A DNA stretch of 64,000 bases. Origin: Rhodospirillaceae bacterium (lineage in GTDB: Bacteria > Pseudomonadota > Alphaproteobacteria > Bin65). A program made the translations under genes and the position numbers. The stretch lies in the NCBI GenBank assembly GCA_028819475.1, contig JAPPLJ010000025.1:1-64000 (forward strand), in the 5' to 3' direction. Below are positions 45,307 to 62,144 of this stretch, piece after piece. The notes beneath the pieces are model-generated. The model was not told the DNA's origin. It searched no databases and saw only the letters and a list, made by a program, of their open reading frames with translations. Position 1 is the first letter of the stretch; each line of letters begins with the position of its first letter.

Positions 45307-45319
45307 GCCGGTGTCGCGG

Positions 45320-45838
45320 TTACCGCCGGTACACGCAATAGGGCCAGGCCGAGACCCCTTCGGGGAGCGCCACGGCCGGGGGGTCCAGCGAGACAAGGCC
45401 GGGACTGCTCATATCCCGGTCGCCCAGCAGAATGCCACCCGGCGCCAGCCGCTGCGCCATGATGCTGCCGACGAACCGGGCGAGCGCGGCATCGGCCCGG
45501 CGGCTCTCGGTGCCGATATCGGCATGGGCAAGCGCCGGCGGCGCCTCGATTTCGGCCCAGCAGGCCGGCAGCGTCTCGCGAAAATCGCCGAGCAGGATCC
45601 GCTCCGGCGCCGGCCGGCTGTGCGCCGGCGCGTGGACCTCGTAATCGAACGCCCAGATGTCCCGGCCGGGAAACAGGCGCCGCAAATGGCTATAGGTCCG
45701 GCCCTTGCCGAGGCCGATTTCGAGAACCGGGCCGTCGATGCCGGAAACCCGTTCGGCGGCCCAGTCCAGCAGCACCCGCTGCGTAGCCAGCCGGGCGATC
45801 ATGCGCTCGAGCCGGCTTTCCGTCGCCGCTTGGCTCAT
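45320..45838 (-). CDS. Class I SAM-dependent methyltransferase
   Basis: A 172-residue Rossmann-fold methyltransferase. Motif I is VLEIGLGKGRTYSHL (about 39-53) and the acidic residue of motif II is in WAFDYEV. It is short for the fold and lacks a long substrate domain. It lies 19 bp downstream of the cyclic-nucleotide-binding gene and reads in the same direction, so it probably belongs to the same operon as the ABC protein. Methylation of a sugar or lipid head would suit the context, but this is inference. Confidence 0.83.
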   Translation of the reverse strand: MSQAATESRLERMIARLATQRVLLDWAAERVSGIDGPVLEIGLGKGRTYSHLRRLFPGRDIWAFDYEVHAPAHSRPAPERILLGDFRETLPACWAEIEAPPALAHADIGTESRRADAALARFVGSIMAQRLAPGGILLGDRDMSSPGLVSLDPPAVALPEGVSAWPYCVYRR

Positions 45839-45857
45839 CGGCCGCCGCCGCCTTCTG

Positions 45858-46304
45858 TCAGGCAGCGCTCAGCTCCCGGATCCGGGCGTTGGTCGCCTCC
45901 AGACGCTTGGCCAGTTCGCGCATGATTTCCACCGCGATCTGCGGAAACTCCATGACGAGGCGGAAAAACAGCTCTTTTGAGATCACCATCGCGTCGAGCC
46001 GGGTCGTCGCCTTCACCGTCGCCGTGCGCGGCACGTCGGTCAGGATGGCGATTTCGCCGATCAGCGCGTTCTTGCGGAAATGCGCCACGGTCAGCGGGCC
46101 GTCGTCGGTCTCGATGATCACGTCGGCCTCGCCCTCCACGATGATGTAGGCGCTGTCGCCTTCGTCGCCCTCGTGGAACAGGTATTCGCCTTCGTTGTAG
46201 GCGTGACGCTCGCTCGTGAAGGCCAGGAGCTTCAGTTTGGACGATTCGATATTGGCGAACATCGGAATGTTGCGCAGAATCTCGACTTCTTCGTTCAGGC
46301 TCAC
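45858..46304 (-). CDS. Stand-alone cyclic-nucleotide-binding domain protein
   Basis: A 148-residue Crp/cNMP-binding domain without any DNA-binding or catalytic domain. The phosphate-binding cassette is intact: GEIAILTDVPRTATV (about 85-99), where the arginine grips the cyclic phosphate and the glutamate the ribose. The last 30 residues (EIMRELAKRLEATNARIRELS) look like a coiled coil for self-association or docking. The GTG start at 46304 is fixed by GGAGG seven bases upstream. It follows the ABC gene by 62 bp and may regulate it, as cNMP domains do in other transporters. Confidence 0.86.
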   Translation of the reverse strand: MSLNEEVEILRNIPMFANIESSKLKLLAFTSERHAYNEGEYLFHEGDEGDSAYIIVEGEADVIIETDDGPLTVAHFRKNALIGEIAILTDVPRTATVKATTRLDAMVISKELFFRLVMEFPQIAVEIMRELAKRLEATNARIRELSAA

Positions 46305-46366: not shown

Positions 46367-49096
46367 CTATTCCGATTCCAGCAGTTCCCGCAGCGTCGAA
46401 CCCTCCCTGTCGAGCTCGGCGAAACTGCCCTGCTCGACGACCCGGCCGCTCTTCATCACGATGACATGGTCGAAGTTTCGCGCGAAGCCGGGCCTGTGCA
46501 GCGACCAGATCACACCACGGCCCTTCATCTCGCCGAGAACGGCGTCGAGCACGCGGCGCTGGGCGGCGCCGTCGAGATTGCTGATGCCTTCGTTGACGAC
46601 GAAAAGGTCGGGCCGCTTGATCAGGCCGCGAGCCATATTGACCTTCTGCCGCTGGGCCGCCGACAGCCGGGCGCCGGCTACGCCCACGGAGTGGGCCAGC
46701 CCCGCCACCATCACGGCGTCGCGGAGCGACAGGGAATCGAGCACCTCCCCGATCATGGCGCTCAGCTTGCCGGCGGCGTTGGCTTCGCCGTAGGACACCT
46801 TGCCGAACAGGATGTTGTCCTGCAGGGTCGCCGCCCGGTTGTACCGGTCGGGGTCGAAGAACTCGACTTCGCCGCGCAGCGTGTCCGGCAGGGTCGCGGC
46901 GAAGATTTCCCGCGCTTTCAGTGCCTTGGCCTGGATTTCGTCGTTCAGCAGACCCAGGCGATGACGGGCGGGAATCAGCTTGAACGGCAGCGAACGCAGG
47001 CGGAACCGGTCTTCCTCGCGCATGTCCGCCGCGGTTTGCCCGGCCGTTCTGGCGAGGAGCTGCTGGTATTCCGGCATCTCTTCGGAGCCGAAGAAGCTGA
47101 ACTGGTCGAAGAAGGCGTGGCCCGGCGGCAGGTCGGCAAAAATCTCCACCATGGTTTCGGTGAGCTGCCGGCCGACCTCGAGCAGCGTGTCGGCAAGATC
47201 CGCTTCGTGGATCACCTGCCGGACAAACGGATGCTCGGCCAGCCGCTCGATATCGAAAACCGCGCCCGCCGGTGTGCCGAACAGCAGGTTTTCCGCAAGG
47301 GTTGCATTGGTGTTGTAGCGTGTCCGGTCGAACGGCTCGACCAGAGCCGACTGTTGCGTCTCGTCCAGTCTGGCACGCAGGGCCGCCCGGGCCGCAAGCA
47401 TCGCTTCGGCCAGATCGGGCCGCTCCGACGGATCGATCGTCCCGCGCAGGCCGAACTGGTACAGGTCGTCGCCCAGATCGACCAATCGCAGCATGTCCAC
47501 GCATTTCCGGTCCAGCGTCTCGCGATCGGAAACGCCGGCGGCGGCGTAGTCCACCCAGTCCGCCTCGGGATCGGCATCGATGTTCGCTGCCGCATGCGCA
47601 TCGCGGACATAGCGGTTGCGCTGCGAACGGGCGGACTCCGTCTCGGCCGTCGGCCGGAGCGGCCTGTAGCGCAGGCCATAGTCGAGATTTGCGCGCAGGT
47701 CGGTCGAGAACAGATAGGGCACCGGTCCGGCGAACGACATCCTCCGGCCGGTAAAGGGCTCGGGCAGATCGTCCAGGTGCCGGCCGGCCAGATCGACGCG
47801 ACCGCCCGTTCCTTTCACCAGCCGGGCGAGCAGCAACACCAGTTCGTCCCGGCCGCTGCTGCCGCTGCCGACGATCGCCGTATGCTTGCCGAGATCGACC
47901 GAGAAGGTGACGCCGTCGACGGTTTTCGACTGGCCGTCTTCGGAATAAGCAAGGCCGGCAGCCTCGAGGGTCCGGCCCATCGCCTCCGGGCCGGCTTCGT
48001 CGGTCAGCTGCAGGGACTCGTCGAACAGGCCGGGCGGATCGAACTGCTCGACCACCGCTTCATACTTCACCTTGATGTCGGCCTGGAGCTGGTAATAGTT
48101 CAGCAGTTCCTTCCACGGCGAACTGAGGTCCTTGTACGCCGCCAGCACGGCGGTCAGCGCGCCGATGGTCATGTCGCCGGCTATCACCAGGTAGCCGCCG
48201 ATCGCATAGAAGAAGAACGGCGTGAGTTGCGCCATGAAGCTGTTCAGGAACTTGATGGCGAACTTGCGGCGGAAAATTTCGTACCGGATTGTGTAGATGC
48301 GATCGAGCCGGCGGGCGATGCCGGCGCGCTCGAAGAGCGAGGCGTCGTTGGCATGGATTTCGGCAATGCCGGCGATCGATTCGCCGATATTGTCGGCAAG
48401 GCCGCGCACTTCCCGCACCCGCGCCTTGCCGAGCGCGATGACCCGCTTCTGCAGCTTTGGAACGATGTAGATCTGGAGCGGATAGAGCGCCGTCGCGGCG
48501 AGGCCGAGAAAGACGTCCTGGGCAAAGATGAATCCCAGATAGACCAGCAGCAGGCCGCCAAAATACAGCGGCGTCGACGTCGCCGTGCCGACATAGCCGC
48601 CGACGGGCTCCACCTCGGCGGTGATCATCGGAATGATCTCGCCCTGGGAAACTTTCTTGAAATGGGGCAGCGGAAACCGAAGGATGCGCGAGTACAGCAT
48701 GTAGCGCAGGCGGCGGAGCATCTGCTCGCCCAGCCGGCCGGCGTAGACGTTCAGCACGTATTTCACGCCGCCGCTGAGGATGACGAAGAACAGGAAGCCG
48801 AAGCTGAGCGCCATCAGGAAGGTGATCTGCTCCATTTCGGCGCCCAGAACGTCGCGCGCCCAGCCTCCTTTCGCCCCGATCGCCTGGTCGATGATCGCTT
48901 TCGGCAACTCCAGTGTCAGATAGATGATCGGCCAGGAAACGACGGTCAGGGCAAGCACAACAAGCTGCTGCCGCTTGCTGTACTTCATGATGAAGCGGAA
49001 GATGCTCGGCTCCAGCGGCACGTTCGGCTGATAGCCGGGGGTCTCGCGCCCCGGTAGCCGGCCGGCGCCAGCGCCTGCGGTCGCAGAATCCGCCAT
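46367..49096 (-). CDS. ABC exporter-like protein with degenerate, expanded ATPase domain
   Basis: A 909-residue protein. Residues about 40-340 form a six-helix type-1 ABC exporter transmembrane domain. The ATPase part (about 385-909) is roughly 520 residues, against about 240 usually. Walker A reads GSGSSGRD (410-417), losing both the lysine and the serine/threonine; the signature is LSAAQ (811-815); Walker B is FVVNE (832-836), with Asn for Asp; the switch histidine is kept (H867). About 350 extra residues sit between the Q-loop region and the signature, including two near-copies of FDxxRYNxxATLxxNxLFG at 589-607 and 747-765. It is divergent from the glycosyltransferase operon and heads one with the cNMP-binding and methyltransferase genes. 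Cargo is probably the product of that cluster. Confidence 0.85.
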   Translation of the reverse strand: MADSATAGAGAGRLPGRETPGYQPNVPLEPSIFRFIMKYSKRQQLVVLALTVVSWPIIYLTLELPKAIIDQAIGAKGGWARDVLGAEMEQITFLMALSFGFLFFVILSGGVKYVLNVYAGRLGEQMLRRLRYMLYSRILRFPLPHFKKVSQGEIIPMITAEVEPVGGYVGTATSTPLYFGGLLLVYLGFIFAQDVFLGLAATALYPLQIYIVPKLQKRVIALGKARVREVRGLADNIGESIAGIAEIHANDASLFERAGIARRLDRIYTIRYEIFRRKFAIKFLNSFMAQLTPFFFYAIGGYLVIAGDMTIGALTAVLAAYKDLSSPWKELLNYYQLQADIKVKYEAVVEQFDPPGLFDESLQLTDEAGPEAMGRTLEAAGLAYSEDGQSKTVDGVTFSVDLGKHTAIVGSGSSGRDELVLLLARLVKGTGGRVDLAGRHLDDLPEPFTGRRMSFAGPVPYLFSTDLRANLDYGLRYRPLRPTAETESARSQRNRYVRDAHAAANIDADPEADWVDYAAAGVSDRETLDRKCVDMLRLVDLGDDLYQFGLRGTIDPSERPDLAEAMLAARAALRARLDETQQSALVEPFDRTRYNTNATLAENLLFGTPAGAVFDIERLAEHPFVRQVIHEADLADTLLEVGRQLTETMVEIFADLPPGHAFFDQFSFFGSEEMPEYQQLLARTAGQTAADMREEDRFRLRSLPFKLIPARHRLGLLNDEIQAKALKAREIFAATLPDTLRGEVEFFDPDRYNRAATLQDNILFGKVSYGEANAAGKLSAMIGEVLDSLSLRDAVMVAGLAHSVGVAGARLSAAQRQKVNMARGLIKRPDLFVVNEGISNLDGAAQRRVLDAVLGEMKGRGVIWSLHRPGFARNFDHVIVMKSGRVVEQGSFAELDREGSTLRELLESE

Positions 49097-49292
49097 CAGG
49101 CCGGAAGAACCGCGGCGAAAGCCGCGTCAGGACTGGCAAAAATGCGCATGGATACCGACATTGAACCTAGCGTCCGGTTCTGACACCATAATTCAGGGCA
49201 AGGCGGACTGGCGATACGGAATCCGTGGCGCCGGGACGAATGGCGGGAATGCGGCCGCCACTGCCCAGGGGGTCCAGCCGATCGGAGCGGCG

Positions 49293-50585
49293 ATGGCGGC
49301 AGACAAGACAGCGCGAGCCGAGTGCAGTCCGGCCCTCCGGGAGGCCGGGGCTTCCGAAAGCCTGCCGGCGGACGCGCTCGGAGACGGTTTCCGCATCCTG
49401 ATCTACAGCCATGACAGTTTCGGCCTCGGGCATCTGCGCCGCTGCCGCGCCATCGCCCACGCGCTGGTCGAGCATCGCAGCAACCTTTCGGTCCTGATCC
49501 TATCCGGATCGCCGATCATCGGCAGTTTCGATTTCCGTTCGCGCGTCGATTTCGTGCGGGTTCCCGGCGTCATCAAGCTGCGCAACGGCGAATATACCGC
49601 GCTGAACCTCCATATCGGCCTGCAGCAGACCCTGGCGATCCGCGAGTCGATCATCCGGCACACCGCCGAAGTTTTCGCACCGCACATGTTTCTGGTCGAC
49701 AAGGAGCCGCTGGGCCTGCGCGGCGAGATCGAGGAAACGCTGGCCTTTCTCAAGGAACGCCGCACGCCCCTGGTCCTCGGACTGCGCGACGTTATCGACG
49801 AACCGGAACTGCTGCAGCCGGAATGGGAACGCAAGAACGCCGTCCCCGCCCTCTCGAAATACTACGATTCGATCTGGGTTTACGGCCTGCCGCAGATCTG
49901 CGACCCGCTCGCCGGGCTGCGGGTGCCGAAATCCGTTCGGCGCAAGATGGTCTATACCGGCTATCTGCATCGGGACCTTCCGACCGGCGGACCCGCAGAC
50001 CCGTCGCAACTCGAAGATCCGTACATCCTGGTGACGCCCGGTGGCGGCGGCGACGGCGAAGCGCTGGTCGATTGGGTGCTGCGCGTCTACGAACAGCGCC
50101 GGACCATGCCGTTGCGCGCCGTCATCGTGACCGGTCCGTTCATGCAAGCCGACAAGCAGGCCGAATTCCAGCAGCGCGCCGCCGCCCTGCACGATGTCAG
50201 CGTCACGACCTTCGATGCGGCGTTCGAGCATCTCATTTCGGGCGCCGAAGCGGTTGTTGCGATGGGCGGCTACAACACTTTTTGCGAGGTTCTGTCGTTC
50301 GACAAGCGGGCCTTGCTGGTGCCGCGGACCGTGCCGCGCCGCGAACAGTTCATTCGCGCCTGCCAGGCCCAGGAGGCCGGCCTCCTGACCATGCTGGAAG
50401 ACGACGGGGTCCGCGACGTTGACCGGATGGCGACGGCGTTACGGCAACTGCCGCAGCAGAACCGGCCCTCGGATGTGATCGTCCCGGGGCTGCTGGACGG
50501 TCTTGACAATGTCAACCGGCTGGTCGGGCGGATCATGGACACCGGGCCCCGCCACGTCCTGCCGGGCGCCGTGAAGGCCGCCTGA
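49293..50585 (+). CDS. Glycosyltransferase, COG4671/MurG-like (GT-B)
   Basis: A 430-residue predicted glycosyltransferase. The N-terminal half has a glycine-rich start GFRILIYSHDSFGLGHLRRC (in two parts; H near 43) as in MurG-type GT-B enzymes, and the C-terminal half has ILVTPGGGGDG and the donor-binding AVVAMGGYNTFCEVLS. The start at 49293 is preceded by GGAGCG. It is the first gene of the rightward operon. The donor is probably a UDP- or dTDP-sugar; acceptor unknown. Confidence 0.85.
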   Translation: MAADKTARAECSPALREAGASESLPADALGDGFRILIYSHDSFGLGHLRRCRAIAHALVEHRSNLSVLILSGSPIIGSFDFRSRVDFVRVPGVIKLRNGEYTALNLHIGLQQTLAIRESIIRHTAEVFAPHMFLVDKEPLGLRGEIEETLAFLKERRTPLVLGLRDVIDEPELLQPEWERKNAVPALSKYYDSIWVYGLPQICDPLAGLRVPKSVRRKMVYTGYLHRDLPTGGPADPSQLEDPYILVTPGGGGDGEALVDWVLRVYEQRRTMPLRAVIVTGPFMQADKQAEFQQRAAALHDVSVTTFDAAFEHLISGAEAVVAMGGYNTFCEVLSFDKRALLVPRTVPRREQFIRACQAQEAGLLTMLEDDGVRDVDRMATALRQLPQQNRPSDVIVPGLLDGLDNVNRLVGRIMDTGPRHVLPGAVKAA

Positions 50586-50589
50586 GGCG

Positions 50590-51879
50590 TTGACGGCAAC
50601 GACGAGACCGCCAGGCGCACCCGGTCCGACCGGGCCGATTGTTTTCGTCCTCAAGGGCTATCCGCGCCTGTCGGAAACCTTTATTGCCCAGGAAATCCTT
50701 GCGCTGGAAAGGCTTGGGCTGGATATCCGCCTGTTTTCGCTGCGCTATCCGACCGAGACGCGGCGCCATCCGGTTCATGACGAGATTGCCGCGCCGGTCA
50801 CCTATCTGCCGGAATACCTGCATCGGGAACCGCGCCGGGTTATGGCCGCCTGGCGCCGCGCACGACGCCTGCCGGGCTATGACCGGGCCGTTCGCGTGTG
50901 GCGGCGCGATCTTTGGCGCGACCGGACGCGCAACCGGGTGCGCCGCTTCGGGCAGGCTGTGGTCTTGGCGGCCGAACTGCCGGACGACGTCAGGCGGCTG
51001 CACGCCCATTTCCTGCATACGCCGTCGTCGGTCGCCCGCTATGCCGCCACCATGACCGGCCTGCCGTGGAGCGCCGCGGCGCACGCCAAGGACATCTGGA
51101 CGATCCCGGACTGGGAAAAGCGGGAAAAACTGGCCGACCTGGACTGGCTGGTGACCTGCACCCGGTACGGCTGGGCGCATTTGCGCGACCTCGCCCCCCA
51201 TCCGGACAAGGTCAGCCTCGTCTACCACGGCCTCGATCTGCGACGGTTTTCGCCCGGCGGCGGAACGCCTTCGAACCGGGACGGCTCGGACCCGAACGAT
51301 CCGGTCCGGCTCCTGTCGGTCGGGCGCGCTGTCGAGAAAAAGGGGTTTCCGGTCCTGATCGAAGCCCTGGCCTCGCTGCCCCGGACGCTCCACTGGCGCT
51401 GGACGCTGATCGGCGACGGCCCGCTGCTTGCCGGCCTTCGGAAGCTGGCGGCGCAGCAGGGCATCGCCGACCGGATCGACTGGCGCGGCGCCCTTGACCA
51501 GCAGGCCGTGCTGGAGGCCTACCGCTCGGCGGACCTGTTCGTGCTGCCCAGCCGGATCGGCAGCGACGGCGACCGGGACGGGCTGCCCAACGTGCTGCTG
51601 GAAGCGCAGAGCCAGGGCCTGTGTTGCCTGTCAACGAGCCTGTCGGGCATTGGAGAATTGATCGATCATTTAAAAACAGGATATCTGGTCGAGCCGGGCA
51701 AGGCCTCAGCGCTGCGTGATGCCTTGCCGGACCTGATCCGCGATCCGGAACGCCGCCGTCGTTATGGCGCGGGGGGCGAAGAGCGGGTCCGGTCCGGATT
51801 CGATGCTGAACTGACCGTCCGGGCGCTGCATGACCGGTTCATCGGACGCAGCACGCAGCCGGCGAAAGACGGCCGGTGA
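50590..51879 (+). CDS. Glycosyltransferase family 4-type protein
   Basis: A 429-residue GT-B enzyme. It opens with VFVLKGYPRLSETFIAQEI, typical of GT4 exopolysaccharide enzymes, and has VYHGLDLRRFSPGG, the beta-strand LLSVGRAVEKKGFPVL, and the EX7E-like donor block at about residues 328-345 (DRDGLPNVLLEAQSQGL). The start is a TTG at 50590, four bases after the previous stop, with GAGGCG just upstream; no ATG is available nearby. It overlaps the next gene by four bases. Confidence 0.87.
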   Translation: MTATTRPPGAPGPTGPIVFVLKGYPRLSETFIAQEILALERLGLDIRLFSLRYPTETRRHPVHDEIAAPVTYLPEYLHREPRRVMAAWRRARRLPGYDRAVRVWRRDLWRDRTRNRVRRFGQAVVLAAELPDDVRRLHAHFLHTPSSVARYAATMTGLPWSAAAHAKDIWTIPDWEKREKLADLDWLVTCTRYGWAHLRDLAPHPDKVSLVYHGLDLRRFSPGGGTPSNRDGSDPNDPVRLLSVGRAVEKKGFPVLIEALASLPRTLHWRWTLIGDGPLLAGLRKLAAQQGIADRIDWRGALDQQAVLEAYRSADLFVLPSRIGSDGDRDGLPNVLLEAQSQGLCCLSTSLSGIGELIDHLKTGYLVEPGKASALRDALPDLIRDPERRRRYGAGGEERVRSGFDAELTVRALHDRFIGRSTQPAKDGR

Positions 51880-53006
51880 ATATCGCCTTCTATGCGCCGA
51901 TGAAGCCGCCCGACGCGGCCCGCCCCTCCGGCGACCGCACGATCGCCCGCATGCTGTTGCGGGCCTTGGCGGAAGCGGGTCACGATGCGACGGTCGCCTC
52001 CAGAGTGCGCAGCTATATTGCGGAGCCGCCGGACCGGAAGCGCTTCAGGACTCTCCAGCGGCAGGCCGACGACGAAGTTCGGCGGCTGATCGACGAATGG
52101 GGGCGCAATCCGCCCGATCTCTGGTTCACTTATCACCTGTTCCACAAGGCGCCGGATCTGATCGGCCCACCGGCCTGCCGGGCAGCCGGCCTGCCCTATG
52201 TCGTCGCCGAGGCCAGCTTTGCGCCGAAGCGGGCAACCGGGCCTTGGGCCGGCGGCCATGAGCGCGTGCGCGACGCGATCGGGCAGGCCGACCATGTGTT
52301 CTTTCTCAATCCGGATGACGAAGCGTGCGTTCTGCCGCTCTTGAAGCCCCGGGCAACCAGTTCCCGCTTGCCGCCGGTGGTTTGTATACAGGAAACGCTT
52401 GAACCGGACCGGCGCCGCGAAGAGCGCCGCCGCCTGGCGGCCGAATGGACTCTTCCGCCGGAGGCGGTCTGGGCCGTTGCGGTCGGCATGATGCGGCCGG
52501 GCGACAAACTCGTTTCCTACAGACGTTTGGCGCAGGCTTGGGCGAACCTGGCGGAAGACGGCGCGCATCTCCTGGTCGTCGGCGACGGCGAGTCAGACAC
52601 CGAAGTTCGACACTTGTTTTCCGACTGCGCGGCCCAGGTCAGCTTCCTCGGCATGTTGCAACCGGCCAATCTGAATTCTGTATACAGAGCAGCCGATCTC
52701 TTCGTTTGGCCGGGTATACAAGAGGCAGTCGGCATGGCGACGCTGGAAGCCATGGCCGCCGGACTGCCGGTGGCGGTCGGCCCCTGGGGATCGGTGGCGC
52801 AGGAAATCGAGCCGGGCGTGACAGGGCTCGTCGCGCGGACCGGCGACGAGCTCGCGCAAGCGGCGCGGCGCCTGATCGCGAGCCCGGAGCTGCGCCGGAA
52901 CCTGGGCGCGGCGGCGCGGGCCCACGTTCTTCGCCGGCACAGTCTGCCGCTGGCGGCGAAGACGCTGACCGCGGTGTTCGAGGACGTGGCGGGCCGCACC
53001 CGATGA
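51876..53006 (+). CDS. Glycosyltransferase family 1/4-type protein
   Basis: A 376-residue GT-B protein from the GTG at 51876. Its first block is NIAFYAPMKPPDAARPSGDRTIARML, readable in sections; the donor-side block is FVWPGIQEAVGMATLEAMAAGLPV, the usual EX7E region (about 285-310). Overlaps of four bases with the genes on both sides indicate coupled translation. The central region is more divergent than in well-known GT4 members. Confidence 0.83.
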   Translation: MNIAFYAPMKPPDAARPSGDRTIARMLLRALAEAGHDATVASRVRSYIAEPPDRKRFRTLQRQADDEVRRLIDEWGRNPPDLWFTYHLFHKAPDLIGPPACRAAGLPYVVAEASFAPKRATGPWAGGHERVRDAIGQADHVFFLNPDDEACVLPLLKPRATSSRLPPVVCIQETLEPDRRREERRRLAAEWTLPPEAVWAVAVGMMRPGDKLVSYRRLAQAWANLAEDGAHLLVVGDGESDTEVRHLFSDCAAQVSFLGMLQPANLNSVYRAADLFVWPGIQEAVGMATLEAMAAGLPVAVGPWGSVAQEIEPGVTGLVARTGDELAQAARRLIASPELRRNLGAAARAHVLRRHSLPLAAKTLTAVFEDVAGRTR

Positions 53007-53623
53007 CAAGAATTCTGTTCCTGCGGCACGGGCCGACCGACTGGAACACCGAAGGACGGGTCCAGGGACAAACCGACGTGCCCCTGAGCGACGCCGGCCG
53101 GAAGTCCGTGCAGGGCTGGCGGCTGCCGCCCTTTGCGGTGAACTGGGAGTGGTACGCCAGCCCGCTGCGCCGGGCGGTCGAGACGGCGACGCTGTTGGGC
53201 GCCGATCCCGCGCGCCTGCATCTCGACAACCGCCTCAAGGAAATCGACTGGGGCGATTGGGAAGGAGCGATCCTTCAAGAACTGAGGGCCGAACAGGGCG
53301 AGGCCATGCGGCGGATTGAGGCGCGCGGCCTCGACATGGCGCCGCCCAACGGCGAATCGCCCCGCCAGTTGACCAAACGGCTGGCCGAATGGCTGGTGGA
53401 AGCGGCGGCGCGGCGGCGGGATATCTGTGCCGTCTGCCACGCCGGTGTCCTGCGCGGCGCCTATACGCTGGCGACCGGCTGGGACATGCGCCGCGCCGCG
53501 CCGCTCGAAAGGGGTCACGCCTGGGCCCATCTCTACGGCCTGGGGCCGGACGGCGCGCTGACGCCCGAGACGCTCAATATCCGCCTTGCCGATCGGGAAC
53601 CGCCGTCCGGCTATGACCGCTGA
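53003..53623 (+). CDS. Histidine phosphatase family protein
   Basis: A 206-residue phosphoglycerate-mutase-like enzyme. The nucleophile is H9 in LRHGPTDWN, the second arginine region is SPLRRAVETA, and the second histidine is in CHAGVLRGAY. Such enzymes are broad phosphatases (alpha-ribazole phosphate, phosphosugars). Its place inside a glycosyltransferase operon suggests a phosphosugar or lipid-phosphate substrate. Four bases overlap the preceding gene and eleven the next. Confidence 0.9.
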   Translation: MTRILFLRHGPTDWNTEGRVQGQTDVPLSDAGRKSVQGWRLPPFAVNWEWYASPLRRAVETATLLGADPARLHLDNRLKEIDWGDWEGAILQELRAEQGEAMRRIEARGLDMAPPNGESPRQLTKRLAEWLVEAAARRRDICAVCHAGVLRGAYTLATGWDMRRAAPLERGHAWAHLYGLGPDGALTPETLNIRLADREPPSGYDR

Positions 53624-54755
53624 AGCGCCGCCCGCCATCCTGTTCTGGGTCCAGCATCTGCTCGGCGTCGGCCACTTCGCGCGGACTGCGGCGCTGGCCG
53701 GAAGCGCCGCTGCCAACGGCTACGCCGCCCATATTGCGAGCGGCGGCGCAAGCGTTCCGGAAGCGCGGACAGGCGGCGCAGAGCTTCATCCGCTTGCGGC
53801 GCTGCGCGCCGGCGATGAATCGTTCGGCCGCCTAGTCAACGCGCGGGGCGACCCGGCCGGCGATGCGGACTGGCGGGAACGCAGCGACCGGCTCGCGGCC
53901 ATTGTCTCAAAAATCCGGCCGCAGCTTATCGTCCTGGAGCACTATCCCTTCGGGCGCCGCGCCTTCGGGCGGGAAATTGCAGCCCTGCTTGACCGCGCGC
54001 GGGCGCAGGGCGCCGTCAGGGTCGCGGTCTCCGTGCGGGATATCCTGGTCGGCCGCAAGGCGGAACGGTGGGTCGAGGCCGCCGAATTCATCGAGCGCCA
54101 CGTCGACCGCGTGTTCGTCCATGGCGACCCGGCCTTCGTCGCGTTCGACGAGACCTTCCCCCTGGCGCGCCGGATCGAGCCGAAACTTCACTATACCGGC
54201 TATGTCGATCCGCACCCGGCGGAAGCGGCAGCCCCGGCGGAACCGGAGATCCTGGTGAGCAGCGGCGGCGGTCGCGTCGGCTCCGCCCTGCGCCGCGCGG
54301 CGCTGGCCCTCGGCGGCGGGCCGGACGGCGAACCGATCCGGATCCGGGCGGGGCCGTCCGTTCCGGCGCATGCCCTCGCTGCGCTAACGGCCTCGGCCGG
54401 ACCGCGGATAACGGTGGAGCGCAACAGGCCCGATTTCCGCGCGCGCCTGGCCGGTTGCGCCTGTTCGGTCTCCCAGGCGGGATACAATACCGTTGTCGAC
54501 ATCCTGAAGACCGGCGCTCCCTCGGTCCTGGTGCCGTTCGACGCGAGCGGCGAAACCGAACAGATGCGCCGCGCCCGCCGGCTCGAGGAAATCGGCCGGG
54601 CGGTCGTCGTGCCGGAAGCCGAACTGACACCGGCGCGATTGCGGATCGCGATCGCCGCCGCGCGGGCACTGCCGCGCAGGCCCGTCGAAATCCGGCTGGA
54701 CGGCGCGGAAGCGTTTGCGCGCGCGCTCTCTGGCCTGCTTGCGGGTTCCGCATGA
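53613..54755 (+). CDS. Glycosyltransferase, second COG4671/MurG-like protein
   Basis: A 380-residue GT-B protein that resembles the first gene of the operon: ILFWVQHLLGVGHFARTAAL at the N-terminus, VSSGGGRVGSALRRAAL in the middle and CACSVSQAGYNTVVDILK near the donor site. Having two members of this uncommon group in one operon suggests they add different sugars to one carrier. It starts at the ATG at 53613 inside the previous gene and overlaps the next by four bases. Confidence 0.84.
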   Translation: MTAEAPPAILFWVQHLLGVGHFARTAALAGSAAANGYAAHIASGGASVPEARTGGAELHPLAALRAGDESFGRLVNARGDPAGDADWRERSDRLAAIVSKIRPQLIVLEHYPFGRRAFGREIAALLDRARAQGAVRVAVSVRDILVGRKAERWVEAAEFIERHVDRVFVHGDPAFVAFDETFPLARRIEPKLHYTGYVDPHPAEAAAPAEPEILVSSGGGRVGSALRRAALALGGGPDGEPIRIRAGPSVPAHALAALTASAGPRITVERNRPDFRARLAGCACSVSQAGYNTVVDILKTGAPSVLVPFDASGETEQMRRARRLEEIGRAVVVPEAELTPARLRIAIAAARALPRRPVEIRLDGAEAFARALSGLLAGSA

Positions 54756-55495
54756 CCGGCTGGGACGCGCTCCGCCGCGAACTCGACCTGTGGGCCGCGC
54801 GCGGCGAGGCGCCGGCGCTGTGGTGGCGCGACGACGATGCGGTCGAGCCGTCGGCGGCCCTTGAGCGGACGATGGCGCTCGCCGAGGCAGTTGCGGTGCC
54901 GCTCGCGCTGGCAGTCATACCCGCGGCAAACCGGCTTACCGCGGCGGATCTGAGCGGCCCGGTCACGGCGGTGCAGCACGGCTATGCGCACCGGAACCAT
55001 GCCGGGCCGAAGGCGAAGAAGTGCGAACTGGGCGCCGAACGCCGCGCCGATCATGTGATCGCCGAACTGATGACCGGAAGGTATGTGCTGGAACAATCCT
55101 TCGGAGATTCCTTCCGGCCGGTCCTTGTGCCGCCCTGGAACCGGCTTGGCGCCCACCTGCCCGCAATGCTGCCGGAACTGGGTTACATCGGCCTCAGCCG
55201 GTTCGGCACGCGCGACCGGCCGGCGATCGGCGCCATGCGGATCGTCAACGCCCATGTCGACATCATCGACTGGCAGGGAAGCCGCGGTTTCGTCGGCACC
55301 GAAACTGCGCTCGCCCGGACTGTCGGCCACCTGCGGGCGCGCCGCGAAAGCGCGGCCGACCCGGCGGAAGCGACCGGCCTGCTGACCCACCACCGGGTGC
55401 ACGACGCAGGCTGCTGGGACTTCCTCGAAAACCTGTTCGCAGTAACGGCCGGTAGCGGCCTCGCCAAGTGGCGCAGCGCTACGTCGTTGTTCTAG
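54752..55495 (+). CDS. Polysaccharide-deacetylase-like protein
   Basis: A 247-residue NodB-type barrel. The metal site seems intact: adjoining aspartates in LWWRDDDAVEP (about 23-31), and histidines in QHGYAHRNH (about 73-81). A late histidine pair in LTHHRVHD would be the catalytic base area. No signal peptide or membrane helix is seen, so it would act on a cytosolic glycan or glycolipid precursor before export, unlike most secreted deacetylases. It ends the overlapping gene series. Confidence 0.8.
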   Translation: MTGWDALRRELDLWAARGEAPALWWRDDDAVEPSAALERTMALAEAVAVPLALAVIPAANRLTAADLSGPVTAVQHGYAHRNHAGPKAKKCELGAERRADHVIAELMTGRYVLEQSFGDSFRPVLVPPWNRLGAHLPAMLPELGYIGLSRFGTRDRPAIGAMRIVNAHVDIIDWQGSRGFVGTETALARTVGHLRARRESAADPAEATGLLTHHRVHDAGCWDFLENLFAVTAGSGLAKWRSATSLF

Positions 55496-55562: not shown

Positions 55563-56075
55563 ATGACCGTACTGCGCTATCCGCGGGCGACCTTGCGCAA
55601 CGACTATATCCGCGCCGGCATCGGGGTGGCCCTGTGCGTGCCGCTGGCCGTGATTTCCCGGGGCAGTTCGTTCGGATTCTGGTTATTCGTCGCCCTGATC
55701 GTGCTCTTCGCGGCCTTTGGCGCACGGACCTGGCTGCGCGCGCAGGCCGAATACAGATTGACCGAAGCCGGGCTCCTGCGCACAAATGCCGCGTTCAGTA
55801 GGAAGGTGGCGACCGGGGTTGCCTGGGCCGAACTGTCCGGCCTGACGCTGCGCTTCTATCCTCTGCGCCGCGACAGGTCCGATGGGTGGATGCAACTGAC
55901 CGTCCGGGCAGCCGGGGCGCGCCTGTCCATCGATTCGACGCTCGAGAATTTCGACGCGATCGCCGAAGCGGCGCTGGCTGCCGGATTGCGCAACGACCTG
56001 CCGATGACCCAGACGACCTTGGCGAACTTTCAGGCCCTGGGATTTTCGCCCGAAAAGCTTTCGGACTCCAACTGA
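55563..56075 (+). CDS. Hypothetical membrane protein, possible PH-like domain
   Basis: A 170-residue protein with two hydrophobic segments (about 17-33 and 35-54) followed by a soluble strand-rich part (YRLTEAGLLRTNAAF, then WAELSGLTLRFYPLRR), the layout of bacterial PH-domain membrane proteins. The ATG is preceded by TAGGCT ending six bases upstream and no ribosome site, again a possible leaderless start. No family is firmly recognised. Confidence 0.7.
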   Translation: MTVLRYPRATLRNDYIRAGIGVALCVPLAVISRGSSFGFWLFVALIVLFAAFGARTWLRAQAEYRLTEAGLLRTNAAFSRKVATGVAWAELSGLTLRFYPLRRDRSDGWMQLTVRAAGARLSIDSTLENFDAIAEAALAAGLRNDLPMTQTTLANFQALGFSPEKLSDSN

Positions 56076-56093: not shown

Positions 56094-57988
<1,895 letters not shown>

Positions 57989-57992
<4 letters not shown>

Positions 57993-59923
57993 CGCTGTAT
58001 CAGCGATGGATTGCCGGTGCGGCGCTGGCGGCGACAAGCCTGGCCGGCGCCGGCAGCGCGGCCCGGGCACAGCCCTATATCGAGCCGCCCTGGCTCAAGC
58101 CAAAAATTGCAACAGGCGTCCTAGCGCCGATCGCGCTGCGATTGCCGGCGACGCCGTCGGTCGTATCCTATGCCGGCACGGCGAAAGAGCCGGGCCGTTA
58201 CGGCGGCTCGCTGACCATGCTGATGGCACGGGCCAAGGATACCCGGATGGCTGTGGTCTATGGTTACGCCCGTCTGGTGGCCTATGACGCCGAATACCGG
58301 CTGAAGCCCGATATCCTGGAGCGGTTCGAGGTGAAGGACGGCCGGACCTTCACCTTCACCCTGCGCAAGGGCCATCGCTGGTCGGACGGCGCGCCCTTCA
58401 CCACCGACGACTTCCGCTATTGGTGGGAAGATGTCGTTCACAACAGGGTGCTGTCGCGATTCGGCGTGCCCCAGGCCTTGCTGGTCGACGGCCGGAAGCC
58501 GAAGGTCGAGTTTCCCGACCGTTACACCGTTCGCTACAGCTGGACGAAGCCGAACCCCTATTTCCTGCCCGCGCTGGCCGGGCCGCGGCCGCTCTATCTG
58601 TACATGCCGCGCCACTATATGCAGCGCTTCCACATCGATTACGCAGAGAAGAAATTTCTCCGCAAAATGACGAGGAACGGCCTGAAGCCGGACGGCTGGG
58701 CCAAGTTCCACCGCAAGCGCGGCCGGATGTACCGGTTCCAGAACCCGGCGCTGCCGACATTGCAGCCCTGGATCCCGACCACCGCGCCGCCGGCGGACCG
58801 TTATGTCTTCGTCCGCAATCCCTATTTCCACCGGATCGACCGCAATGGCCGCCAGCTGCCCTATATTGACCGGCTGGTCTTCATCATCGCCGACAGCAAG
58901 ATCGTCGCCGCCAAGGCCGGGGTCGGCGAGACCGACCTGCAGGGCCGCTATCTGCGCTTTACCGACTTCACCTTCCTCAAGCGCGGCGAAGCGCGGGGCA
59001 AGCACAGGGTCTATCAATGGCAGACCGCCGTCGGCGCCCAGATTGCGCTCTATCCGAACCTGAACCACAAGGATCCGGTGTGGCGCGGATTGTTCGGCGA
59101 TGTCCGCTTCCGCCGTGCGCTTTCCCTCGGCATCGACCGGCGGGAGATCAACAGGGTGATGTATTACGGGCTCGCCGCCGAGGGCGGCGATACCGTGTTG
59201 CCGAGCAGTCCGCTGTTCCGGCCGGAATACCGCAACGCCTGGGCACGCTTCGATCCCGACCGGGCGAATGCCCTGCTGGACGAGATCGGCCTGATCCATC
59301 GCGACGGCGAGGGCTATCGCCTGCTGCCCGACGGACGGCCGCTCGAAATCATCGTCGAGGCGGCTTCGGAGGGCAGCGAATATACCGACGCGATGCGCCT
59401 GATACAGGATTCCTGGCGCCGTATCGGCGTCCGCCTGTTCCAGAAAAACACGCGGCGCGAAATGTTCCGCCGCCGCGTCTACGCGGGCCTGACCCATATC
59501 GCGATGTGGACGGGGATGGATTACGCCGACGTCCGGGCAGACACGCCGCCGCTGGCGTTGGCGCCGACTGACCAGGTCCAGCTCCAGTGGTCTCAATGGG
59601 GCCTCCATTATGCGAGCAAGGGCCGGTCGGGGCAGAAGCCGACCGATCCCGGCGCACTCCGGCTGATCGAGCTGCTGCGCCGGTGGGAGGCCGCCGGCTC
59701 GATGGCGCAACGGCGCAGTATCTGGCACCGGATGCTGAAGATTTCCGCGGACCGGGTCTATTCGATCGGCCTGGTCGGCGGCGTGATCCAGCCGGTCGTC
59801 GTGAACGTAAGCCTGCGCAACGTGCCGAAAACCGGGGTCTGGGCCTGGAACCCCGGGGCCCATCTGGGCATCTATCGGCCCGATACGTTCTGGTTCGCCA
59901 AGCCGTCCGGGGCGACCCGCTGA
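57989..59923 (+). CDS. Peptide-type ABC transporter substrate-binding protein
   Basis: A 644-residue periplasmic protein of the SBP_bac_5 family with a signal peptide (about 1-29, cut near ARAQPY). The core includes the family lines FTFTLRKGHRWSDGAPFTTDDF and RRALSLGIDRREINRVMYYG, in sections. It is about 100 residues longer than OppA/DppA, as in the YejA-like and related groups that carry larger or unusual peptides. It follows the ATPase by a start-stop overlap. Cargo is unknown. Confidence 0.92.
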
Positions 59924-59970
59924 CGATGCCGCACCGTCGCTCCGCCCGCCCGCGCTGACCGGCAAGGCCG

Positions 59971-60969
59971 ATGCTCCGCTATATCGCCCATCGCCTGCTG
60001 ATCATGGTGCCGACCCTGATCGCGATCAGCTTCATCGTGTTCGTCGTCATCCAGCTTCCGCCCGGCGACTATCTGACGACACTGATCGAAGAGCTCCGGG
60101 AACTGGGCGAGCCGGCCGACCTGAAACAGATCGAGGCGCTGCGCGAGGAATACGGCCTCGACCAGCCCTTCCTGGTCCAGTATGTCCAGTGGGTCTTCGG
60201 GCTGGTCCAGGGCGATCTCGGTTATTCCTTCGAATACGAGCAGCCGGTGGCCGACGTGGTGGGCGACCGGTTGTGGCTCTCCTTTATCGTCTCGGTCGCG
60301 ACCATCATTTTCACCTGGATCGTCGCCTTCCCGATCGGCGTCTACTCGGCGACCCACCAGTACAGCTGGGCCGACAATTCCCTCACCTTCATCGGCTTCC
60401 TGGGGCTGGCGACGCCGAATTTCCTGCTCGCCCTAGTCATGGTCTATTTCGCCAACGTCTGGTTCGGAACCGAGATCGGCGGCCTGATGGACGAGCGGTA
60501 TATCGGCCAGCCGTGGGGTTGGGGGAAGATCGTCTCGGTCCTCGAGCATCTGTGGATCCCGGTCATCGTGATCGGCACGTCCGGCACCGCCGGTATGATC
60601 CGCCGCCTGCGCGCCAACCTGCTGGACGAGCTTCAGAAGCAGTATGTCGTGACCGGCCGGGCCAAGGGCCTGCCGCCGTTCCGGCTACTGGTCAAATATC
60701 CGCTGCGCATGTCGCTCAACCCGTTCATCTCGGATATCGGCGACCTGCTGCCCCAGGTGATTTCGGGCGCCGTCATCGTGTCGGTGGTGCTCAACCTGCC
60801 GACCACCGGCAAGATGCTCTATGAAGCGCTGCTCAGCCAGGACATGTATCTGGCCGGCTCCTTCCTGATGTTCCTCGCCCTGCTGACCGTGCTCGGCGTG
60901 CTGGTCTCCGATCTGGCGCTGGCCCTGCTCGATCCACGGATCCGGCTCCAGGGCCGGGCGGAAAAATGA
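59971..60969 (+). CDS. Peptide-type ABC transporter permease, subunit B type
   Basis: A 332-residue inner-membrane permease with six helices. It starts LRYIAHRLLIMVPTLIAISF, typical of DppB/OppB/YejB, and has the cytoplasmic EAA loop near VVTGRAKGLPPFRLL (about 225-240). It overlaps the next permease by four bases, forming a heterodimeric channel with it. Confidence 0.94.
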   Translation: MLRYIAHRLLIMVPTLIAISFIVFVVIQLPPGDYLTTLIEELRELGEPADLKQIEALREEYGLDQPFLVQYVQWVFGLVQGDLGYSFEYEQPVADVVGDRLWLSFIVSVATIIFTWIVAFPIGVYSATHQYSWADNSLTFIGFLGLATPNFLLALVMVYFANVWFGTEIGGLMDERYIGQPWGWGKIVSVLEHLWIPVIVIGTSGTAGMIRRLRANLLDELQKQYVVTGRAKGLPPFRLLVKYPLRMSLNPFISDIGDLLPQVISGAVIVSVVLNLPTTGKMLYEALLSQDMYLAGSFLMFLALLTVLGVLVSDLALALLDPRIRLQGRAEK

Positions 60970-62144
60970 CCGGGCGCACCGCCTCGTCGCCGGGCCCGGC
61001 CAACGAACGGTTCGTTTCCGAAGCGCCGTTCAATCCGCATTCCATCGAGGCCCTGACCCCGGAACAGGAGCGCTATTACCTGGCGGGCCAGTGGAAGCTG
61101 ATGTGGTGGAAGCTGCGCCGCCACAAGATCGCGGTGTTCTGCGGCGGTCTTCTGCTGTTCATGTATGTGTGCGCCATGGTTGCCGAACTGCTGGTCCCCT
61201 ACAACATGGCGGCGCGGCACACCGGTTTCATCTATGCGCCGCCGCAGGCCGTGCGGCTGTTCCACGAAGGACGATTCGTCGGGCCGTTTGTCTACGGGCT
61301 GAACTACCAGCTCGATCGCGACACGCTGCAGCGGATTTATACGGTCGATCATTCAAAAATATATCCGATCCGCTTCCTGTGCCGCAGCGAGGCCTACCGG
61401 TTCTGGGGCCTGATCGAGATGGATGTCCGCCTGTTCTGCGCCGCGAGGGGCGGCACCCTGTTCCTGCTCGGAACGGACCGGATGGGGCGCGACATGTTCT
61501 CCCGCCTAGCGATCGGTTCGCGAATATCGCTAACCATCGGCTTTGTCGGCGTCGCGATCAGCTTTCTCCTCGGCATCGTCATCGGCGGGCTGGCCGGATA
61601 TTACGGCGGTTGGGTCGATTCGATCGTCCAGCGCGTCATCGAGGTGCTGCGGTCCTTCCCGGTGCTGCCGCTGTGGATGGCGTTGTCCGCCGCGCTGCCA
61701 GTCACCTGGTCGCCCCTGTGGATCTATTTCGGTATTACCCTGATCCTCGGCCTGCTGGACTGGACCGGCCTGGCCCGCGCCGTGCGGTCCAAGCTGTTCG
61801 CCCTGCGGGAAGAGGACTTCGCGACGGCTGCGCAATTGATGGGCGCCAGCCCGAGCCGGATCATCGGGCGGCATCTGCTGCCCAGCTTCACCAGCCACCT
61901 GATTGCCTCTGCAACCCTCTCAATCCCGGCGATGATCCTCGGCGAAACGGCGTTGAGTTTCCTGGGCCTCGGCCTGAAGCCGCCGATCACAAGCTGGGGC
62001 GTGCTATTGTCGGAGGCGCAGAATATCAACGTTGTCGCGCTTTACCCCTGGTTGATGCTTCCGGTGGTGCCGGTCATCGTCACGGTGCTGACGTTCAATT
62101 TCCTCGGCGACGGCTTGCGGGACGCCGCCGACCCCTACAAGTGA
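60966..62144 (+). CDS. Peptide-type ABC transporter permease, subunit C/E type
   Basis: A 392-residue permease. After the first helix (about 52-73) there is an extra periplasmic region of about 90 residues (about 75-165) not found in the short DppC, then the normal GTDRMGRDMFSRL and five helices with the EAA loop FATAAQLMGASPSRII. YejE-like permeases also carry such an insertion, pointing to a transporter group different from DppC. Confidence 0.93.
   Translation: MTGRTASSPGPANERFVSEAPFNPHSIEALTPEQERYYLAGQWKLMWWKLRRHKIAVFCGGLLLFMYVCAMVAELLVPYNMAARHTGFIYAPPQAVRLFHEGRFVGPFVYGLNYQLDRDTLQRIYTVDHSKIYPIRFLCRSEAYRFWGLIEMDVRLFCAARGGTLFLLGTDRMGRDMFSRLAIGSRISLTIGFVGVAISFLLGIVIGGLAGYYGGWVDSIVQRVIEVLRSFPVLPLWMALSAALPVTWSPLWIYFGITLILGLLDWTGLARAVRSKLFALREEDFATAAQLMGASPSRIIGRHLLPSFTSHLIASATLSIPAMILGETALSFLGLGLKPPITSWGVLLSEAQNINVVALYPWLMLPVVPVIVTVLTFNFLGDGLRDAADPYK

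Follow-up and report, generated by a model that had tools for sequence, protein, structure and literature searches.

A degenerate type IV ABC exporter family of alphaproteobacteria with three Q-loop/helix units and a cNMP-binding partner

The ABC protein P0001 is encoded in a stretch of 64,000 nucleotides from a Rhodospirillaceae bacterium (contig JAPPLJ010000025.1; hereafter the window). It belongs to a family in which catalytic residues of the ATPase domain are recurrently missing, the segment linking ATPase and membrane domain occurs as three Q-loop/helix units, and a cNMP-binding domain is almost always adjacent or fused. We read P0001 as a non-hydrolysing, ABC-derived membrane protein that would be controlled by the cNMP domain and would serve an envelope-glycan pathway. 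Taken as a whole, we consider the chances of this reading to be evenly balanced; what drives the protein and what it handles are the most doubtful points. Coordinates of all features are listed in Table 1.

Table 1. Position of P0001, its motifs and units, and the neighbouring genes in the window.
Feature	Position	Strand	Basis
cNMP-binding domain protein, phosphate-binding cassette GEIAILTDVPRTATV, likely GTG start	45858..46304	minus	Pfam cNMP_binding 1e-19
P0001 (909 aa), half-transporter of the type IV ABC exporter kind, degenerate	46367..49096	minus	translation, Pfam, AlphaFold, Foldseek
Transmembrane domain, residues 30-350; most conserved part	48047..49009	minus	conservation of 90% or more in 85 columns
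Degenerate Walker A GSGSSGRD, residues 410-417; Arg for Lys, Asp for Ser/Thr	47846..47869	minus	translation and family alignment
Unit 1 Q-loop half, residues 446-484, with Pro458 in place of the Q-loop Gln	47645..47761	minus	hhalign
Unit 1 helix half, residues 526-554	47435..47521	minus	hhalign
Inserted helical domain modelled alone, residues 474-772	46781..47677	minus	pLDDT 91.2
Unit 2 Q-loop half, residues 583-610, FDRTRYNTNATLAENLLFG	47267..47350	minus	hhalign
Unit 2 helix half, residues 623-644	47165..47230	minus	hhalign
Unit 3 Q-loop half, residues 741-768, FDPDRYNRAATLQDNILFG; runs into signature motif	46793..46876	minus	hhalign; aligns to ABCB19
Unit 3 helix half, residues 776-804	46685..46771	minus	hhalign
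Signature motif LSAAQ, residues 811-815	46652..46666	minus	translation and family alignment
Walker B VVNE, residues 833-836; Asp replaced by Asn, Glu836 kept	46589..46600	minus	translation and family alignment
Switch histidine His867	46496..46498	minus	translation and family alignment
Glycosyltransferase, GT28-like	49161..50585	plus	16/20 genomes
Glycosyltransferase family 4	50590..51879	plus	16/20 genomes
Glycosyltransferase family 4	51876..53006	plus	16/20 genomes
Histidine phosphatase, branch 1	52958..53623	plus	Pfam 2.7e-39; 16/20 genomes
MurG/GT28-like glycosyltransferase	53586..54755	plus	16/20 genomes
Conserved protein, polysaccharide-deacetylase-like by eye only	54752..55495	plus	15/20 genomes; no Pfam/NCBIfam match
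Small conserved membrane protein	55563..56075	plus	14/20 genomes; no Pfam/NCBIfam match
Opp/Dpp-type importer, four genes: double ATPase, SBP family 5, two permeases	56094..62144	plus	Pfam/NCBIfam; 14-16/20 genomes
Class III adenylate/guanylate cyclase, N-terminal membrane helices	62161..63909	minus	Pfam Guanylate_cyc 1.2e-11

The P0001 gene lies on the minus strand, and the plus-strand reading of its interval is not the gene. Pfam placed an ABC_membrane domain (2e-16) over residues 88-318 and an ABC_tran domain (3e-8) over residues 394-465, which together in one polypeptide make up the type IV ABC exporter fold. The sequence relatives of P0001 in the PDB are ABCB-type exporters, and its AlphaFold model (mean pLDDT 83.9, most blocks of the ATPase domain above 90) was matched to ABC exporters by Foldseek. 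Among NCBIfam models the best match was MsbA_lipidA (159 bits against a cut-off of 602), and no equivalog cut-off was reached among the matches listed. The family shares with MsbA/ABCB type IV exporters the six-helix membrane domain and NBD in one chain and the fold match, but it has lost the catalytic motifs and gained a 265-residue insert between Q-loop and signature as well as the cNMP partner. No curated family covering P0001 was found, and a search of the open-access literature for the combination of cNMP domain, degenerate ABC protein and cluster yielded no paper describing it.

The first-pass annotation had reported a Walker A motif without its lysine (GSGSSGRD), LSAAQ in place of LSGGQ, VVNE with Asn for the Walker B Asp, and a retained catalytic glutamate and switch histidine. 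All of this is exact in the translation, where the latter two are Glu836 and His867. The Q-loop Gln is lost as well, its position being taken by Pro458, and P0001 thus keeps three of the eight catalytic residues scored, the third being signature Ser812. The full set of motifs of an ATP-hydrolysing ABC exporter (GxxGxGK[ST], Q-loop Gln, LSGGQ, Walker B Asp-Glu and switch His) is not present. P0001 is an ABC exporter in fold but, by these catalytic features, not an ATP-hydrolysing one.

Residues were counted in 72 family sequences of less than 90% identity. None of them carries all eight catalytic residues; one member (L091) has seven and six others have five or six. The Walker A Lys is kept in 29/72 (Arg in 40/72; Arg, Ala or Gly together in 43/72) and the Mg2+-binding Ser/Thr in 6/72 (Asp or Glu in 46/72). 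The Q-loop Gln is kept in 10/72, the Walker B Asp in 15/72 (Asn in 36/72), the Walker B Glu in 30/72, the switch His in 23/72, and the signature Ser and Gly in 31/72 and 10/72, respectively. Nearly all catalytic residues are lost in a Shimia/Roseobacter clade. On a tree calculated from the membrane domain alone the catalytic residues show 5-15 state changes, a count that is blind to the direction of gain or loss. Since regain of a catalytic residue is the less likely direction, the residues were probably lost in parallel across the family tree. As to whether orthologues share the lost residues and the extra units, a question raised by the first-pass annotation, the insert is conserved and loss recurs, but no single replacement became fixed, as the Lys/Arg and Asp/Asn counts show. 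Judged from these residues, loss of ATP hydrolysis is very likely, and some members, such as L091, may hydrolyse ATP.

An exporter that binds ATP at atypical sites and perhaps hydrolyses it slowly, the insert being no more than regulatory, is possible, and we allow this explanation a minor share of probability. The NBD fold is kept with pLDDT mostly above 90, Ser812, Glu836 and His867 are in place, and seven of the 72 members retain five or more of the residues. However, a homodimer would have two defective composite sites. Substitution of the Walker A Lys or Ser/Thr weakens nucleotide and Mg2+ binding in ABC enzymes, and the observed exchanges of Lys for Arg, Ala or Gly and of Ser/Thr for acidic residues would do the same here. 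Degenerate Walker B or switch residues are also found in the exporters TAP, TmrAB, TM287/288 and MsRv1273c/72c, but the known exporters of this degenerate-site type are heterodimers that retain one canonical site (PMC7756269, PMC12038006), whereas P0001 is degenerate at every site and has no conserved partner gene nearby.

The near-copies FDRTRYNTNATLAENLLFG (residues 589-607) and FDPDRYNRAATLQDNILFG (residues 747-765) pointed out by the first-pass annotation are both present, and profile-profile comparison showed that they repeat beyond chance. For this comparison a family alignment of 41 sequences (A1) was cut into pieces, which were compared as profiles with hhalign. Unit 2 matched unit 3 with a probability of 97.8% (E 7e-13 over 63 columns). 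Six pairings were made, of Q-loop halves with one another and of helix halves with one another; each scored above all 60 column shuffles, and they share one register, q1-h1-q2-h2-q3-h3, followed by LSxxQ. Chance repeats as the origin of the units were ruled out by the shuffles and the profile comparison. Helix-half matches were singly weak (7-50% probability), and homology of the helix halves is accepted because of the common register and the shuffle control, not because of single matches. Unit 1 is placed after the Walker A half of the ATPase domain, and unit 3 (AATLQDNILFGK) aligns with the canonical ATTILENILYGK of the plant exporter ABCB19. PDB alignments served as the canonical reference; a profile of canonical exporters from the same genome caught mostly importers. 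With a canonical segment on either side and a third copy between them, tandem duplication of the Q-loop/helix linker would be the simplest history. The three ordered, homologous units and the ABCB19 alignment support the earlier proposal that the piece linking ATPase and membrane domain was duplicated internally.

In the family alignment the extra stretch between units 1 and 3 comprises 238-266 residues (median 264), and P0001 exceeds a canonical NBD by ~290 residues. The expansion thus amounts to about 265-300 residues, less than the ~350 first estimated. Structure prediction, proposed in the same annotation, gave a confident model of the insert alone. This model had no fold match in the PDB (best E 1.5), and searches of Pfam, PHROGs and PDB sequences yielded no credible sequence relative of the insert; matches to vimentin (E 0.03) were taken as chance coiled-coil similarity. 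Of 240 genomes sampled from the class, 79 contained a match to a profile of the insert, always in ORFs of P0001 architecture. At three further loci (L100:3540-6128, L101:3066-6113 and L102:4917-7763) a triple-unit ATPase domain with insert is attached to a membrane domain without a match to the family profile, and the cluster neighbours are absent nearby. These loci may represent either a domain swap or a second family.

Two features had been overlooked by the first-pass annotation, a cNMP partner and a conserved gene cluster. The cNMP gene starts ~62 bases downstream of the ABC stop codon, and its product has the PF00027 domain with an intact phosphate-binding cassette. The ABC protein has such a domain next to it or fused on at 61/61 loci and in 92/93 family sequences. 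The exception, L059, is a protein of 1047 aa with a C-terminal extension in which that search gave no cNMP match. In other species the domain is fused to the ABC C-terminus, and the tree implies at least two fusion events. One orthologue of 1196 aa (L026:2862-6450) carries, besides the fused cNMP domain, a further C-terminal stretch that is GGDEF-like by eye. The PKA/HCN-like cassette GEIAILxxxPRTAT is intact in many copies; it reads GELALLRKEKRALD in the Roseobacter clade, and in a Rhodobacterales clade both the ATPase motifs and the cNMP cassette are eroded. A Thr in the PRTAT cassette is common to cGMP kinases and cAMP-binding HCN channels, and therefore we do not assign cAMP or cGMP from it. 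In the window, a plus-strand ORF (45311-45925) overlaps the end of the cNMP gene; it is weakly conserved in 12 loci and has no family match.

A cNMP domain on an ABC exporter is also known from HetC of Nostoc, a PCAT exporter in which this domain is essential in vivo and binds ppGpp in vitro (PMC10986499), so that the ligand of the P0001 partner should not be assumed to be cAMP. HetC differs from the P0001 family in its C39 peptidase, its essential catalytic Glu and the N-terminal location of the cNMP domain. We know of no insert of the P0001 type in HetC.

Conservation of the neighbouring genes was assessed in 20 diverse genomes. The cluster is transcribed divergently from the ABC gene, and each of the eleven genes between ABC gene and cyclase gene recurs in 14-16 of the 20. 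The cyclase neighbours the ABC gene in 4/20 of these genomes and additionally in Rhizobium hidalgonense and S. meliloti; it was found in the cluster of the window and of six other records examined and is missing beside most copies. In Azospirillum B510 a fused ABC-cNMP gene, AZL_RS29885, heads most of the cluster genes, in rearranged order. The near-obligate cNMP partner together with the conserved cluster points to signal control more than to ATP sensing, and guilt by association with the cluster suggests a glycan as substrate.

S. meliloti has a polysaccharide exporter, MsbA2 (SMb21191), that is likewise linked to glycosyltransferase genes. The S. meliloti copy of the family is not MsbA2, as judged by the positions on pSymB (~938 kb for the MsbA2 operon versus 842 kb; PMC3687685). 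In strain 1021 this copy (L141:13001-15713; pSymB 841723-844435) has one base more than in most other strains, which breaks the frame near the 5' end. Since most other strains lack the extra base, and the copy of strain 2011 has 2712 bases, the split may be a sequencing error.

The non-canonical NBD, the near-obligate cNMP partner and the cyclase in the cluster would also fit a receptor or a ligand-gated channel of ABC fold, similar to CFTR or SUR, that signals the cyclic nucleotide or substrate state to the cluster enzymes and transports nothing. We regard this as unlikely: no other part is nearly as conserved as the membrane domain, as would suit a path for a substrate, and the cluster looks biosynthetic.

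Relatives of the membrane domain without an ATPase domain were found as open frames of ~330-490 aa (L095:4926-6200, L096:4986-6068, L097:4983-6200, L098:4926-5933, L099:1-1146, L108:7812-9116 and L142-L144). They score 195-360 bits with the family membrane-domain profile, and no adjacent ABC exporter ATPase was seen where the neighbours could be inspected. Several of them lie in roseobacter copper-oxidase/cytochrome c operons and are sometimes annotated as ABC transporter ATP-binding protein. The tree joining them to the ABC family, of which they could be descendants or sisters, has long branches. Membrane domains of the family type can thus do without an NBD; SbmA, which is related to ABC membrane domains and driven by protons, is a precedent (PMC13316013). 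With the SLiPTs (SbmA/BacA) P0001 would share an ABC-type membrane domain working without ATP hydrolysis, and its family likewise includes NBD-free members. SLiPTs, however, have lost the NBD and the coupling helices; they possess a glutamate ladder and eight TM helices (PMC13316013). In P0001, by contrast, the NBD is kept and enlarged. P0001 is therefore not a SLiPT, which by definition lacks the NBD. In its model short helices stand at the places of coupling helices (H143-148 and H244-249), as far as is apparent from secondary structure only.

Many exporters are heterodimers with one degenerate site (PMC7756269), and the genome of P0001 encodes an MsbA-like half-exporter. P0001 could thus be the inactive half of a heterodimer that obtains its working ATP site from a canonical ABC exporter encoded elsewhere. 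The MsbA-like half-exporter is distant, however, with 48 bits to the membrane-domain profile with which the ATPase-free relatives score 195 or more. Moreover, no ABC exporter, and so no second half-transporter with a canonical site, is encoded among the conserved neighbours in the 20 genomes, and damage to both signature and Walker A would leave neither composite site clean. Such a heterodimer appears quite improbable to us.

A scan of the contigs yielded 61 loci, which are full length wherever the contig allows and contain the insert in all cases. Of 289 genomes sampled from the class, 98 matched the family profile, in a few cases with a partial or ATPase-free sequence, and in a sample of the phylum the family was present in 26 of 299 genomes, 25 of them from the same class. 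Full-length orthologues with the insert occur in about one third of the sampled genomes of the class and in many families. One genome (G154) has three full-length copies, one of them beside a second ABC exporter (L103:1514-3340). In comparison with six close relatives dN/dS stayed below 0.25 in every region tested: the insert gave 0.11-0.23, the C-terminal part of the ATPase domain 0.03-0.10 and the membrane domain 0.03-0.07. That P0001 is a decaying pseudogene, as motif loss alone might suggest and as orthologues with intact motifs and no insert would have indicated according to the first-pass annotation, is hardly conceivable, because selection is purifying throughout, full-length orthologues in many families carry the insert with an intact motif set in 0/72, and the cluster is conserved.

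We therefore return to the reading of P0001 as a non-hydrolysing, cNMP-controlled protein. It would be a homodimeric membrane protein derived from an ABC exporter, in which the ATPase domain, having no hydrolysis cycle, would act as a regulatory and scaffolding domain. The tandemly duplicated linker, with its three Q-loop/helix units, would form a new helical domain near the coupling surface. Binding of a nucleotide signal by the adjacent or fused cNMP protein may set the association or state of the degenerate ATPase dimer, and the enlarged linker would relay this state to the membrane domain. The latter may flip, gate or pass an intermediate, glycan or glycolipid, that the neighbouring glycosyltransferases would make, presumably driven by a gradient or by product flux and not by ATP. 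Several observations speak against this reading: L091 has seven of the eight residues, P0001 itself retains Ser812, Glu836 and His867, most copies lack a cyclase beside them, motifs and cassette are eroded together in the Rhodobacterales clade, and the model, unlike SLiPTs, seems to have short helices where coupling helices would be.

ABC exporters are defined by ATP hydrolysis. Tentatively, and with a rather low expectation of being right, we suggest that the family might constitute a widespread group of transporters, derived from ABC exporters, whose ATP engine was replaced by a cyclic-nucleotide-switched pseudo-ATPase; by way of the duplicated Q-loop domain, the cNMP domain would open and close a gradient-driven path for a glycan or glycolipid. 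If true, the family would offer a natural experiment, showing how membrane domains are driven by NBD motions and whether another signal can take the place of ATP. As it is common in alphaproteobacteria, including genetically tractable rhizobia, the question is testable.
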